Source: Sulfurifustis variabilis (GTDB lineage Bacteria; Pseudomonadota; Gammaproteobacteria; Acidiferrobacterales; Sulfurifustaceae). Taken from it: a DNA stretch of 64,000 nt. The notes below the pieces were generated by a model, which did not search any database, was not told the DNA's origin, and worked only from the letters and a program-made list of their open reading frames with translations. Of this stretch, positions 2,674-7,962 are shown piece by piece (within the stretch, counting starts at the first letter, position 1; each line of letters begins with the position of its first letter). The position numbers were made by a program, and so were the translations under genes. The stretch lies in contig NZ_AP014936.1 of assembly GCF_002355415.1 (NCBI RefSeq), positions 496,001 to 560,000 of the forward strand. The letters are read 5' to 3'.

Positions 2674-3162
2674 ATGTTTGGACGTGTCTTCGGGATATGG
2701 CTCGCGCTCGTGGCTGGCGCGGCCTCGGCGACCGAGCTGCCGATGGCGAGCGACCTGCGCGCCGACGCGCGGCATGCCGCTCGCTACGGTACCCCCATAC
2801 TGGTCTTCTTCGCGGCCGACTCCTGCCCCTTCTGCCACCAGGTCGAGGACCTGCACCTGCGCCCGATGCACGTTCGCGGTACCTACGGCGACAGGGTGTT
2901 GATACGTGTGGTGCGCACCGAGCGCGCACAGGCGATGACCGACTTCGACGGCCGGCGCACCGACCACGGCAGCTTCGCGCGGCGCGAGGGTGCGACGTTC
3001 ACGCCGACGGTGCGGCTCTACGGCCCGGGCGGCCAGGAACTGGCACGCCCGATCATCGGCTACTCGGCCGATTTCTACTCCGGAATGCTCGAGCAGGCGA
3101 TCGACGATGCGCTCGCCCGCTTGCGCTCGCAAGCGCAAGCGGGCAGCCCTTCCGGCTTCTAG
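2674..3162 (+). CDS. Secreted thioredoxin-fold protein (SoxW-like)
   Basis: A 162-residue protein with an N-terminal signal peptide (about residues 1-19, cleavage near ASA-TE). A thioredoxin-like core follows: strand PILVFF, then the redox motif CPFC at residues 51-54, and FTPTVRLYGPGG around the cis-Pro position. It probably acts in the periplasm on disulfides. It is divergent from hemC and convergent with algR, their ends overlapping by 4 bases. CPFCH also reads as CxxCH, but the surrounding fold is thioredoxin, not cytochrome c. The substrate is unknown. Confidence 0.75.
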   Translation: MFGRVFGIWLALVAGAASATELPMASDLRADARHAARYGTPILVFFAADSCPFCHQVEDLHLRPMHVRGTYGDRVLIRVVRTERAQAMTDFDGRRTDHGSFARREGATFTPTVRLYGPGGQELARPIIGYSADFYSGMLEQAIDDALARLRSQAQAGSPSGF

Positions 3163-3914
3163 CCGGCGGCGGCAACGGCCGGGCGGTTGCGTGCCCAGCG
3201 GCGGACCGCCGCGGTGTGGCGCCGGCTCACGTCGAGCTTCTTTTCCACGCCGCGCAGGGCGACCTGCCAGGTGCCGACCGGGCTTTTCTCGATTCCCTTG
3301 ATGAACTGCGTGGCCACCAGCGCGTTGCGGTGAATGCGCAGGAACCGCTCGCCGAATTCCTTCTCGAGGTTGACGAGCGAATCCTCGATCAGGTGCTCCT
3401 CGGTGGCCGTCCGCACCACGACGTACTTGCTGTCCGCCAGGAAGTAGGCGATGTCCGGCACGGGGACGAGCCGGATGTTGCCGCGCAGGTGCACGCTGAT
3501 GTGCGTGCGGCTCGGCATGTCCTTGCGCGCGTGGTGGATCTCCTGGATCTGGCGCATCGTGAGCTTGCGCGCCTTCGTGAGCGCGTTCGCAAGCCGGTCC
3601 TTGCGGATCGGCTTGAGCAGGTAATCGACCGCATTCACGTCGAACGCGTCGAGCGCGTGCTGGTCGTAGGCGGTCGTGAAGATGACGCTCGGGGGATGCT
3701 CCATTCCCATGAGGTGCATGGCCGCCTCCAGACCGTCCATGCCGGGCATTCGGATGTCCATGAGGAGCACGTCCGGGTTGAGCTCCGAGGCCTTCTCCAC
3801 CGCTTCGGCGCCGTTCATGGCCTCGCCGATGACGGTATAGCCGCCGATGTCGGACAGGAGCTCGCGCAGGCGGTCACGGGCCAGCTTTTCGTCGTCTACG
3901 ATCAACACTCTCAT
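3159..3914 (-). CDS. algR: LytTR-family response regulator AlgR
   Basis: A 251-residue two-component regulator. The receiver domain (residues 1-120) has the acidic pair Asp7-Asp8, phospho-acceptor Asp53 in LLMDIRMPG, the Thr in FTTAYD and Lys in LLKPI. The C-terminal LytTR DNA-binding domain (about 140-245) contains the paired RIHRNALVA and GTWQVALRG motifs of the family. In Pseudomonas AlgR controls alginate, pili and rhamnolipids; targets here are unknown. It is the last gene of a three-gene operon behind two sensor kinases, overlapping the proximal one by 4 bases (ATGA). Confidence 0.93.
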   Translation of the reverse strand: MRVLIVDDEKLARDRLRELLSDIGGYTVIGEAMNGAEAVEKASELNPDVLLMDIRMPGMDGLEAAMHLMGMEHPPSVIFTTAYDQHALDAFDVNAVDYLLKPIRKDRLANALTKARKLTMRQIQEIHHARKDMPSRTHISVHLRGNIRLVPVPDIAYFLADSKYVVVRTATEEHLIEDSLVNLEKEFGERFLRIHRNALVATQFIKGIEKSPVGTWQVALRGVEKKLDVSRRHTAAVRRWARNRPAVAAAG

Positions 3915-5047
3915 AGGTTTCCTCCACGTGTCGGCAGTACGACGGTCACGCGGAACACGCCGTTCTCCTCGCCGGCATCGAGCACGGCGGCGTCGCCGTA
4001 ATGGCTCTGCAGGCGGGAACGAAGGTTCTCGAGCGTACGGCTTTCCGCCGCGGCCGACTTGGACTTGGTAGGGGGACAGGGATTAACGACCTGGATGTGG
4101 ATTTTATCATTGTCCTCCCAGAGCCTGACGCCCACCGTCCCTCCCGACGGCCACGGCTCGATGCCGTGGTGGATGGCGTACTCCAGGAGCGGCTGCAGCG
4201 TCAGCACCGGCATCGCCGCCTTGCGCGGAAAGGTGCCGACCTCCCAGTCGACGTGCAGCCGCTGGTCCAGGCGCAGGGTCTCGAGCGCCACGTACTTCCG
4301 GGCCACATCGACCTCTTTCTTCACCGGGACCAGCATTTCGTCTTCGCTCAGCATCATCCGGAACAGGTCCGCCATGTCCTCGACCGCGCGCTCGGCCCGG
4401 GCGGGCTCGTTGCGCGTCAGCGAAGCGATGATGTTGAGTGCGTTGAACACGAAGTGCGGCCGGATGCGCGACTGCAGCGCCTGGATCCGGGCGCGCGCCT
4501 CCGACAGCGTGCGTTGCGTGAGCTCGTGCTTGTTCACGAGGTAGCGCAGGGCGAGCGCGTTGACGACCGCGCTCACCGTGAAGTTCTGGATGTGAAAATA
4601 GGCGTACCACTCGGGCCGGGCCGTGCTCAGCTGGCCCATGCCCCACAGCAGCCACAACGCGGCCTCGCTCACGGCGAGCGTCACGAGCAGGAGCAGCGCG
4701 TAGCTCATCAGCAGCGAGCGCGTGCGCGGCAGGCGGTTGAGCCACGGCCGGGCCTGACACAGGACGGCGACGCTCGTGAGCGCGATCCACTGTACGAACA
4801 GCGAAATCAGCAGCAGGTCCTGAAAGAGCGAGAGCGAGATGCGCCGAGTGACGAGCGTGATCACGATCGCCAGCATCTCGGCGATGATGGCGACGTTGAT
4901 AACGACGTGGGCGGCGCAGAAGTCGGGGAGGAATTTGACTTCGACCGGGTCGCGCGCGGCGCCCTGCGCGGGCGTCTGGCCGACCAGCGAGTCGGCGACC
5001 CGTCGCGCGAACCCGCCCAGGGTCTGGCGAAGCGCCGAGAGCTCCAT
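3911..5047 (-). CDS. LytS/AlgZ-type sensor kinase, probably degenerate
   Basis: The protein has 378 residues if the ATG at 5047 is used, which overlaps the stop of the upstream kinase (TAATG). It has four predicted membrane segments in the first 180 residues, then a His-kinase region with the phospho-acceptor motif RIRPHFVFNAL. The ATP-binding part departs from the family. The N-box reads LLEYAIHHG, where the upstream paralogue has LLENAIYHG, so the Mg-ATP-coordinating Asn is a Tyr. The Gly-rich G-box before the final NLRSRL is replaced by Ser/Ala/Lys residues. I infer that ATP binding is weak or absent and that it works as a partner or sensor subunit for the intact kinase. It feeds AlgR, whose gene follows directly. 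Confidence 0.8.
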   Translation of the reverse strand: MELSALRQTLGGFARRVADSLVGQTPAQGAARDPVEVKFLPDFCAAHVVINVAIIAEMLAIVITLVTRRISLSLFQDLLLISLFVQWIALTSVAVLCQARPWLNRLPRTRSLLMSYALLLLVTLAVSEAALWLLWGMGQLSTARPEWYAYFHIQNFTVSAVVNALALRYLVNKHELTQRTLSEARARIQALQSRIRPHFVFNALNIIASLTRNEPARAERAVEDMADLFRMMLSEDEMLVPVKKEVDVARKYVALETLRLDQRLHVDWEVGTFPRKAAMPVLTLQPLLEYAIHHGIEPWPSGGTVGVRLWEDNDKIHIQVVNPCPPTKSKSAAAESRTLENLRSRLQSHYGDAAVLDAGEENGVFRVTVVLPTRGGNL

Positions 5048-6114
5048 TACTGGCCCCGCACGATCGGCATCTTGATCTTCACGTGGTACTGCCCTCCCTC
5101 CTCGAAGGTCTGCAGGTTCGCCGTCGCGCCGAACTGCGTCGTCAGACGCTGGCGGGTGTTCTCCTGCGCGAGCTTGTTTCCCCGCCCGTGCGTGTTCTTG
5201 GGGAGCTCGGGAAGCGGGTTGCTGATGAGGATGTTGAGTGTCTCGCCCTCGGCCCACATGTCGATCTTGATGGTCCCGCCGGCGAAACGCGGCTCGATGC
5301 CGTGGTAGATCGCGTTCTCGAGCAGCGGCTGCAGGGTGAGCGCGGGGATCAGCGCCGATCGCGGGATATTGGGGCTTACGTTCCAGATGACGCTCAGGCG
5401 GTCGCCGAGGCGAATCTTCTCGATCTCGAGGTACTGCCGCGAGATCTCGCGCTCGGCCGAAAGCGGCACGAGCTTGCGCGCGTCGGCGAGCAGCACCCGG
5501 AAGAGATCGGCGAGATCGTGCAGCACGGCCTCGCCCTTCTCGGGGTTGCTGCGCGTGAGACTGGCGACGCTGTTCAGGCTGTTGAAGAGAAAGTGCGGGC
5601 GGATGCGCGATTGCAGTGCCTGCATGCGCGCCTCCTGCTGGGCGCGCGACTCGCTTTCAGCCCGGTGCTGGACCGCGAAGTAGCGCATGCCGAGTATTCC
5701 GATGATGCCGGCCACCATCAGGCTGCGCACGATGAGCGATTCGCGCCATGCCGGCCAGCGCTCGGGGATGAGCCCGAGGTCGTGCAGGGCGAAGATCATC
5801 CCGTCCGTGCCGATCGCCGTGACCAGCAGCAGGAGAAGCACGACCAGCAGCGCCCCCACGCTCACCGAGGTGCGCCGGAGCAGGGGCGCGGCGAGCTTGA
5901 GGATCACCACCGCGAACAGCGAAATCGAGATGGCGAAGGCGGACAGGAGGTTGAGGTCCTGCCAGGCCTGTTCGTCGAACACGGGGTTGCGACCGATCGT
6001 GATGATGATCGCGATGATTTCGGCGAGCAGGATGAACCGGATGGCCATGCCGAAGGAGCCGAAGTCCGGAAGAAAATGCTGCGGCGGGGCCGCATGAGCC
6101 TGTTCGCGTGGCAT
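5047..6114 (-). CDS. algZ: LytS/AlgZ-type sensor histidine kinase
   Basis: A 355-residue inner-membrane kinase, first gene of the operon. Four hydrophobic helices lie in the first 170 residues (for example ALLVVLLLLLVTAIG). A short linker leads to the His box RIRPHFLFNSL with intact His, the N-box LLENAIYHG, and a G-box-like stretch with HGRGNKLAQEN ahead of TRQRL. These are the features of the HisKA_7TM-less AlgZ/FimS group that phosphorylates LytTR regulators, here AlgR. The signal is unknown. It is closely related to the next gene and most likely arose by tandem duplication. Confidence 0.88.
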   Translation of the reverse strand: MPREQAHAAPPQHFLPDFGSFGMAIRFILLAEIIAIIITIGRNPVFDEQAWQDLNLLSAFAISISLFAVVILKLAAPLLRRTSVSVGALLVVLLLLLVTAIGTDGMIFALHDLGLIPERWPAWRESLIVRSLMVAGIIGILGMRYFAVQHRAESESRAQQEARMQALQSRIRPHFLFNSLNSVASLTRSNPEKGEAVLHDLADLFRVLLADARKLVPLSAEREISRQYLEIEKIRLGDRLSVIWNVSPNIPRSALIPALTLQPLLENAIYHGIEPRFAGGTIKIDMWAEGETLNILISNPLPELPKNTHGRGNKLAQENTRQRLTTQFGATANLQTFEEGGQYHVKIKMPIVRGQ

Positions 6115-6350
6115 GGGGATGCTGTCTCTGGCGCCTCGGCTGAACCGGTCGTGAGTTCCCGCGGGAGCGTGGAACGGGAACGAGCCCAGGACGGGCGGTG
6201 TTTTAACGTAAAGGACGCAGTCTTCGCAAGGACGCCGCCCGCACCGCCCCTCGCGCCCAAGTATAGATTTGGCCGGCCACCCGCGGACCGGCGGCTCAGT
6301 ACGCGCGCGGAAGGCGCGTCAAGTATACTTTGACCCCGTTGGCCGCCCAC

Positions 6351-6378
6351 AAAAAAAACCCCCGTACGAGACGGGGGT
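6351..6378 (-). terminator. Rho-independent terminator of the candidate small RNA
   Basis: Perfect 8-bp stem (ACCCCCGT at 6358-6365 with ACGGGGGT at 6371-6378), 5-base loop, followed on the minus strand by a run of seven to eight T. Confidence 0.85.
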
Positions 6379-6443
6379 CGGAAGACCTGATTCGGCATTC
6401 GGGGTGGGGGTGCACAAAGGAGAGTCCGAATCAGGCAGTCACT
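6351..6443 (-). ncRNA. Candidate small RNA, about 93 nt
   Basis: No protein gene fits the 456-base gap between the algZ operon and argH, but the minus strand has the layout of an independent small RNA. There is a promoter-like pair upstream, and a long hairpin with 10-bp perfect arms (6426-6435 and 6386-6395, CCTGATTCGG/CCGAATCAGG) enclosing a 30-nt, C-rich loop. A strong intrinsic terminator ends it. The loop contains CTCCTTT, complementary to a ribosome binding site, and two CACCCC stretches, a common design for base-pairing regulators. The terminator has no other gene to serve, because argH upstream lies on the opposite strand. Rest of the gap: nothing clear apart from the algZ promoter region. 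Confidence 0.55.
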
Positions 6444-6449
6444 GTAGGG

Positions 6450-6478
6450 AACATAGCCCGGGAGGCCGGGGACAACAA
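6450..6478 (-). promoter_or_regulatory. Sigma-70-like promoter for the candidate small RNA
   Basis: On the minus strand TTGTTG (6478-6473) and TATGTT (6455-6450) are separated by 17 bases. The predicted start near 6443 lies just before the RNA hairpin. Confidence 0.45.
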
Positions 6479-6570
6479 TGCAGGACCGATAATCGGGAGG
6501 CCGCCACGGATGGACGGCGGACGCGTCGCACCGGCGATACGGCCGCCTCGGCGCGGACGGTAGAGCGGAC

Positions 6571-7962
6571 ATGATCAAAGAAAAGCTTTGGGGCGGGCGC
6601 TTTACGGAAGCGACCGACGCCCTGGTCGAGCGCTTCACGAGCTCGGTCGATTTCGACCGCAGGCTCGCCCACTACGACATCGCCGGTTCCATCGCGCATG
6701 CGCGCATGCTCGGGCACGTCGGCGTCCTGACCGAAGGGGAATGCAACGCCATCCGGCGCGGACTCGAGCAGATCGAGGCCGAGATCGAGCGCGGCGAATT
6801 CGCCTGGAGCGCCGAGCTCGAGGACGTGCACATGAACATCGAGGCGCGCCTGACGCAGCGCATCGGCGAGGCGGGCAAGAAACTGCACACCGGCCGCTCG
6901 CGCAACGACCAGGTGGCGACCGATCTCCGGCTCTACCTGCGCGACGGCATAGACGCGGTGCTCGAAGCGCTGCGGGAACTGCAGGTCGTGGTCCTCGATG
7001 TCGCGGAGCGCGAGGCGGAAACCATCCTTCCCGGCTTCACGCACCTGCAGATCGCCCAGCCCGTGACTTTCGGCCACCACCTGCTCGCGTGGTTCGAGAT
7101 GCTCACGCGCGACGCGGAGCGGATGCGGGATTGCCGCCGCCGGGTGAACGTGATGCCGCTGGGCGCCGCCGCGCTCGCCGGCACGAGCTTCCCCATCGAC
7201 CGCGCGTACACGGCCGAGCTCCTCGGCTTCGAGGCGGTCGCCGAAAATTCGCTCGATGCCGTGTCCGATCGCGACTTCGCGATCGAATTCGTGCACGCCT
7301 GTGCGCTGTTGATGACCCACCTCTCGCGCATGTCCGAGGAACTGATCCTCTGGTCCTCGTCCCCGTTCGGGTTCGTCGAGCTCGCCGACGCCTACTGCAC
7401 CGGCTCGTCGATCATGCCGCAAAAGAAGAACCCCGATGTGCCCGAGCTCGTCCGCGGCAAGACCGGGCGGGTCCTCGGTCACCTGGTCGGACTGTTCGCG
7501 ATCATGAAAGGGCAGCCGCTCGCGTATAACAAGGACAACCAGGAGGACAAGGAGCCGGTCTTCGACAGCCTGGACACCGTTCTCGCCTGCCTGCGCGTCT
7601 ACGCGGGCCTGGTTTCGACGTTGCGGGTGGGGCGCGAGCGGATGCGGGAGGCGGCGCGGCTCGGCTACGCGACCGCAACCGATCTCGCGGACTACCTCGT
7701 CCGAAAGGGGGTGCCCTTCCGCGACGCGCACGAGATTGTCGGCCGCGCCGTGCGGCACGCGATCGAAAGCGGCCGCGATCTCTCGGCGCTTACGCTCGCC
7801 GAGCTGAAGGAGTTCGGGCCGGGAATCGAGGCGGACGTGCAGGCGGTGCTCACCCCGGAGGGGTCGGTGCGGGCGCGTGACCACTACGGCGGGACGGCGC
7901 CGACGCAGGTGCGCGCCGCGCTGGCGCGGGCCCGCTCGCGGCTCGCGTCCGGGCCAGGCTGA
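6571..7962 (+). CDS. argH: Argininosuccinate lyase
   Basis: ArgH splits argininosuccinate into arginine and fumarate, the last step of arginine synthesis. The 463-residue length is normal. Family marks: LWGGRF at the start, HTGRSRNDQ (about residue 110), the catalytic His in TFGHHLLAW and the fumarase/lyase signature [11 protein letters not shown] near residue 280. In Pseudomonas argH also sits divergent from algZ. Its stop overlaps the start of the next gene by one base (TGATG). Confidence 0.97.

Follow-up and report, generated by a model that had tools for sequence, protein, structure and literature searches.

In the excerpts of the published sX13 study, this Xanthomonas RNA depends on its C-rich loops for the repression of mRNAs that have G-rich motifs close to their starts, and its action is independent of Hfq (PMC3771888). 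The same excerpts propose that the C-rich apical loops pair with these G-rich motifs, and they describe an RNA with three stems and 4C/5C loops that is encoded at the polA locus (PMC3771888). The RNA described here resembles sX13 in displaying a C-rich loop, but it has one stem, a 30-nt loop with two motifs and a terminator, and it lies between argH and algZ; the two RNAs were compared only via Rfam. Short conserved anti-Shine-Dalgarno loops on stems are also found in the relatives of NfeR1 and other sRNAs of the Alphaproteobacteria, in which the loop reads CCUCCUCCC. These NfeR1-type sRNAs differ from the argH-algZ sRNA and its two-motif loop in loop sequence, class and synteny. A further point of comparison is provided by the AlgZ/AlgR-RsmY/RsmZ system, since a kinase and a LytTR regulator of this type adjoin our sRNA. 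In Pseudomonas, transcription of rsmY and rsmZ rises on algR over-expression, according to the excerpts of a review on AlgZ/AlgR, which make no mention of argH (PMC4064291); the box upstream of our sRNA is not above chance for the AlgR core.

The locus is part of a 64,000-nt stretch of DNA from Sulfurifustis variabilis, referred to as the window, which corresponds to positions 496001-560000 of the single contig of this genome (3,958,814 bp). Searching positions 5800-7000 of the window with Rfam 15 yielded eight matches up to an E value of 5, all of them under their gathering scores. The best one was RF02837 anti-hemB (Burkholderia RNA 7), which is alike in its terminator-ended hairpins and similar in size, but reached only 20.5 bits (E 0.046; gathering score 49.5), and by eye the agreement lies mostly in the terminator. 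RF02497 (Atu_C10) reached 19.1 bits (E 0.66; gathering score 60). Rfam 15 gave no match for 20 other loci, including the divergent copies L079, L080, L081, L082, and L084. In the literature searched (most subscription papers and all bioRxiv preprints were outside its scope), we found neither a report of this sRNA nor any sRNA study for the Acidiferrobacterales. Overall, the sRNA represents a new family of a known kind, namely a single-hairpin regulatory RNA with a C/U-rich loop.

Sequence elements of the sRNA locus

The features of the locus and its neighbors are as follows (positions within the window).

6571..7962, plus strand: argH, argininosuccinate lyase, divergent neighbor (TIGR00838, 659.4 bits, cut-off 279.5)
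6486..6511, minus strand: putative upstream promoter box, ATCCGT-N9-CCGATTATCGG (fixed spacing in relatives)
6478-6473, minus strand: putative -35 element, TTGTTG (sequence; comparison of relatives)
6455-6450, minus strand: putative -10 element, TATGTT, 17 bp from the -35 element (sequence; comparison of relatives)
6351..6443, minus strand: predicted small RNA of ~93 nt (start placed from the -10 element, end from the U tract)
6435-6426, minus strand: 5' arm of the 10-bp stem (compensatory changes)
6425-6396, minus strand: 30-nt C/U-rich loop with the conserved motifs CUCUCCUU and GCACCCCCACCCC (alignment A1, motif counts in 52 loci)
6395-6386, minus strand: 3' arm of the 10-bp stem (compensatory changes)
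6351..6379, minus strand: predicted intrinsic terminator, GC hairpin 6379-6357 and U8 6358-6351 (terminator scan; stem covariation)
5047..6114, minus strand: algZ-like sensor histidine kinase, downstream same-strand neighbor (Pfam His_kinase PF06580)
3159..3914, minus strand: algR-like LytTR response regulator of the same cluster (Pfam Response_reg and LytTR)

We call the kinase algZ after the sequence-only reading of this DNA, not by family match; the kinases downstream of the sRNA match no NCBIfam model. The LytTR regulator presumably corresponds to algR, and we take the arrangement to be algZ-algR. The LytTR regulator is preceded by not one but two AlgZ-like sensor histidine kinases in a row (3911-6114, minus strand), and such a doubling was seen as paired matches also in G004, G020, G153, G259, and G431.

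The hexamers of the promoter that had been proposed from the letters alone (TTGTTG, 17 bp, TATGTT) are indeed present, and the same layout recurs in 52/52 aligned loci. The 10-bp hairpin, the 30-nt C-rich loop with CUCCUUU and the terminator are likewise found on the minus strand exactly where they had been placed; the loop includes CACCCCCACCCC in addition to CUCCUUU. In the upstream box of S. variabilis, ATCCGT and ATCGGT start 21 bp apart, and 7 bp separate the box from the -35 element. The 93-nt RNA has a predicted folding energy of -36.8 kcal/mol, compared to -22.6 ± 2.9 in shuffled sequences (z -4.84), and none of 200 shuffles was equally stable. The terminator was one of two found by a terminator scan, for which shuffles gave 0.8 ± 1.2. 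A strict σ70 scan of positions 5900-6900 listed no promoter, and the hexamers of the sRNA promoter match 7 of 12 consensus letters. Single-sequence statistics thus back the promoter weakly and the terminator moderately. Judged at the level of sequence, the strong evidence that the locus is not a product of chance is comparative.

Conservation and covariation of the hairpin

By blastn, 151 bp of the window matched 58 of 96 genomes at E ≤ 0.1, its own genome included, and 54 of these 58 belong to the 57 genomes of the order Acidiferrobacterales (read from the table). The remaining four matches, outside the order, were weak (E 0.018-0.07); two of them, L055 and L056, were examined and dropped as chance. 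A covariance model (R1) found the sRNA in 53 of the 57 genomes of the order and in 33 of the 34 good ones, a count that is not independent, since 52 of the 53 matched genomes supplied sequences to the model. R1 scored 99.2 bits at G000:C1:502347-502448, a sequence that is itself part of the model. In one genome (G020), the blastn match runs into a contig end inside the sRNA, and three others (G009, G015, and G018) lack both the sRNA and an algZ match at E ≤ 1e-10. Given this contig break and the three genomes without algZ, there is no clear absence of the sRNA within the order.

Alignment A1 contains 52 of 56 loci (51 distinct rows) and excludes the chance matches L055 and L056 as well as L054 and L032, which are cut by contig ends. 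Stem conservation had been set beforehand as a refuting test for the small RNA. Both arms are kept with compensatory changes, and 98.0% of the 510 stem cells across the 52 loci are paired, a value that drops to 54-56% if the pairing is slid by one column. Seven of the ten stem pairs change on both sides, compared to 4.3 in shuffles, with 64 double-changed cells instead of 13.0 ± 4.5 and a covariation score of 0.429 instead of 0.231. Further pair types, one of the five covariation measures, were not above shuffles (15 vs 13.7, a number reached by 97 of 500).

The loop is near-invariant (CUCUCC...GCACCCCCACCCC), whereas the stem and the terminator drift. Such constancy of the loop on a stem that drifts suggests that the RNA works through the letters of its loop. 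The motif GCACCCCCACCC is exact in 50/52 loci, CUCUCC is present in 47/52 and UCC[UC] in 52/52, and the two motifs are separated by a linker of variable length. In f7, the CUCUCC half reads GUCC instead, and in the f64 order it reads CCCUCA. An exact pattern search of the named genome collection returned 37 stretches. The matched stretches are labelled Acidiferrobacterales, Acidiferrobacteraceae, Acidiferrobacter, Muproteobacteria, or Proteobacteria/Gammaproteobacteria only, with one labelled as an Acidithiobacillales MAG; two pattern matches from other groups (L120 and L141) looked like coding sequence by eye and were set aside.

In a class sample of 370 genomes, R1 had matches in 41 at E ≤ 0.1, most of which are weak. 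Convincing copies outside the order come from f104 (G409 and G343) and f64 (G113, G233, G321, and G392), and argH and algZ flank the sRNA in all six genomes. In the order of f104, the sRNA is present in two of four genomes; G153 and G259 of this order have a short argH-algZ gap without it. Six of the eight genomes of the f64 order contain two tandem complete copies, about 0.28-0.44 kb apart and each with its own terminator, and seven of the eight are matched by model R2, which was built partly from them. These tandem copies are located beside algZ (L080, L082, L084, L086, L249/L253, and L250/L255), and their sibling loops include ACCCUCA...UGCACCCCCA and ACCCUCAUCUGAUACACCCCCGAC. Such an arrangement is reminiscent of known sibling sRNAs. 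Alignment A2 and model R2 combine 41 of the 52 A1 loci with six other loci that hold ten copies. In the class, R2 matched 23 of 369 genomes at E ≤ 0.001 and eight at E ≤ 1e-8, the latter comprising three of the order, four f64 and one f104. The wider alignment, with 51 sequences and two other orders represented, had been fitted to the structure, so that its values are biased toward that structure: double changes occur at 10/10 stem pairs and 6/7 terminator pairs, with 139 double-changed cells compared to 36 in shuffles.

Model matches in f75, f148 and the tail at E ~1e-4 to 0.1 were discarded as other C-rich-loop RNAs or chance. Neither argH nor algZ was found in the examined stretches of L083, L085, L087, L088, and L089. 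Two f148 genomes (L083 and L089) have a common hairpin with UGACUCCCCC and CCCGCACCC, followed by a terminator, and two f131 genomes (L263 and L264 ~1501) have a near-identical small hairpin, CCUGAAAGGACCCCCUCGUCCUUUCACG, also with a terminator. The weakly matched gammaproteobacterial loci L098, L099, L103, and L262 ~1501 show hairpins with UUCCCC-type loops upstream of a terminator and resemble a multi-loop C-rich sRNA; L098, L099, and L103 have no Rfam match at the gathering score.

A chance combination of hairpin and terminator, or a piece of coding sequence, would agree with the negative strict promoter scan and with the open reading frames that overlap the locus in several frames. But conservation and covariation extend across seven families of the order as well as two orders beyond it, and a reading frame would be disrupted by the single-base indels that were seen by eye in the loop and next to the stem. 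We regard such an origin as extremely improbable. Taken together, the sequence comparison supports the structure, the conservation, the synteny and the promoter layout of the sRNA. The earlier interpretation as a minus-strand small RNA thus gains support from conserved stems, synteny and promoter layout, and the locus is almost certainly a real structured RNA gene.

Promoter, upstream box and neighboring genes

TCGG, a candidate -35 element TTGnnn and a candidate -10 element TAnnnT were found in 52/52 loci, the best-spaced candidate being taken in each. The spacer between -35 and -10 measures 17 bp in 44 loci, 18 bp in seven and 16 bp in one. The gap between box and -35 element is 7 bp in 48 loci and 17-18 bp in four f7 loci, in which the box sits 10-11 bp further away, corresponding to about one helical turn. 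A generic promoter score at a fixed distance from the stem gave 6.2 compared to 1.9 in shuffles, with loci of longer 5' ends being missed or misplaced by it. Since the distance from the -10 element to the loop varies, the sRNAs of f2, f3, f5, and f6 should have longer 5' ends. For the 40 loci in which the gap is 7 bp and the spacer 17 bp, the consensus reads GCCnCntnTCCGT-n9-cCGaTnATCGGt, in which TCCGT and TCGGt start 21 bp apart, equal to two helical turns. A distance of 21 bp between direct repeats is in keeping with a LytTR regulator. By eye, a similar box arrangement is present in f104 and in both f64 copies, with some letters changed (in f64, TCAG for TCGG).

The fixed element was compared in 52 loci with CCGTTCGTC, the Pseudomonas core of AlgR as given in the excerpts of the review (PMC4064291), and agreed at 7/9 positions in 22 loci, 6/9 in 17, 5/9 in 12 and 8/9 in one. 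When the upstream regions of the 52 loci are shuffled, their best matches to CCGTTCGTC span these same values. A search of 57 genomes for RTCYGY-N10-CGRYYRTCGG gave 80 places, of which 46 are the sRNA promoter and 34 lie elsewhere (hand count). Its reversed version occurs at 25 places, as compared to these 34, and in S. variabilis the exact pattern is found once, at the sRNA promoter. Therefore, a search of this stringency gives little indication that the regulon is wider.

In the examined stretches, argH is divergent and algZ co-directional in 48 of the 52 aligned loci; the exceptions are L011 without argH and L014, L024, and L040 without algZ. The algZ match of L034 is distant and just 36.5% identical, and it may be a paralogue. 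Among the best-scoring 30 algZ loci of a class-wide search, 28 have a divergent argH. Six of these 28 carry the sRNA (three of the order and three f64); the other 22 have a gap of about 82-373 bp, in which no such hairpin was seen by eye. Judging from these sequences, the argH-algZ pair is more widespread than the sRNA.

The sequence-only reading had described the terminator as orphaned. This holds with respect to argH, which is divergent on the plus strand, but not with respect to algZ, which lies downstream on the same strand, and so the sRNA had to be weighed as a possible 5' leader of algZ. Its terminator would then act as an attenuator that is overridden by a signal or an antiterminator. 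An algZ-like gene is next on the same strand in 49/52 loci, and pairing between the C-run of the loop and the G-run of the terminator is conceivable. But the distance from the loop to algZ ranges from 99 to 504 nt, with 1201 nt in L034, and the f64 order has two tandem complete copies, each ending in its own terminator, which weakens this reading. Furthermore, the terminator is kept with its own covariation, and its arms change while the loop remains unchanged. AGTATAC or AGTATAA was counted by hand at most 110 nt downstream of the sRNA in 21/52 loci; this motif is possibly a candidate promoter of algZ or a regulator site, and a separate algZ promoter would also argue against a leader. We consider an attenuating leader to be quite unlikely, and the sRNA is very probably a free-standing transcript. 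In the window, a palindromic AAGTATACTT is located at 6321-6330, 20 nt past the U tract of the sRNA.

Predicted function of the loop

We infer transcription, regulator, base-pairing mode and targets of the sRNA along the following lines. An independent sRNA gene would be transcribed from a regulated promoter with a weak -35 element, and it would be switched on by a transcription factor that occupies the upstream box. The neighboring AlgZ/AlgR-type system is a candidate activator, by position alone. In the predicted fold of the RNA, a single stable stem displays a long unpaired C/U-rich loop and is followed by the terminator. In trans, this loop may pair with G/A-rich ribosome-binding sites or with G-runs near the start codons of several mRNAs, and such pairing would block their translation. 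We take CUCCUUU in the loop to match the anti-Shine-Dalgarno tail of 16S rRNA, and ACCCCCACCCC would fit G-runs. For action through C-rich loops, sX13 provides a precedent (PMC3771888). The sRNA has one trait of this mechanistic class: its C/U-rich loop is conserved, unpaired and carried by a stable stem, and an intrinsic terminator follows.

At -20 kcal/mol, pairing of the loop with 603 start regions gave 175 matches, compared to 166.7 ± 37 for shuffled loops. There was no excess in duplex energy over 40 shuffled loops in these 603 regions, which cover 864 kb (22% of the genome) and rest on home-made gene calls; short seeds may escape such a search. Strong single duplex matches, such as those to TypA-like and EF-G-like genes (named by eye), carry no statistical weight and were set aside. 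Pairing with the starts of algZ (49 loci, mean z -0.16) and argH (51 loci, mean z 0.13) was no better than in shuffles. The only perfect 12-nt complement of the loop core in S. variabilis is the sRNA gene itself; across the 57 genomes searched, it was also matched elsewhere in some others. Many targets with short seeds would fit these null target searches, and so would a protein partner.

With a protein partner, the loop would be a protein-binding site and the RNA a decoy for a C-rich single-strand binder. Rho, which favors C-rich, G-poor unpaired RNA, is one candidate. The near-fixed loop, with both stems drifting, agrees with this, as does the lack of a start-site pairing excess and of a perfect 12-nt complement outside the gene in S. 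variabilis. But each RNA has a single loop, whereas known decoys such as CsrB carry many binding sites. The linker between the loop motifs is variable in length, CUCCUUU is presumably an anti-Shine-Dalgarno sequence, and the target scan spanned just 22% of the genome. Overall, we think a decoy unlikely. A one-site sponge-type RNA, the CUCUCCUU/GCACCCCCACCCC loop of which is read by a C-rich-binding protein under control of the neighboring LytTR system, appears rather improbable.

The best explanation, and in our view a reasonably probable one, would be a regulated trans-acting sRNA with a C/U-rich loop that pairs at ribosome-binding sites. For the pairing at ribosome-binding sites as such, the sequences suggest about an even chance.

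The sRNA constitutes a sharply defined family in nearly all examined genomes of the Acidiferrobacterales, whose members oxidise sulfur and iron. With the letters of the loop fixed and the stem drifting, its function can be tested directly, and the controlling signal can be approached through the conserved upstream box.
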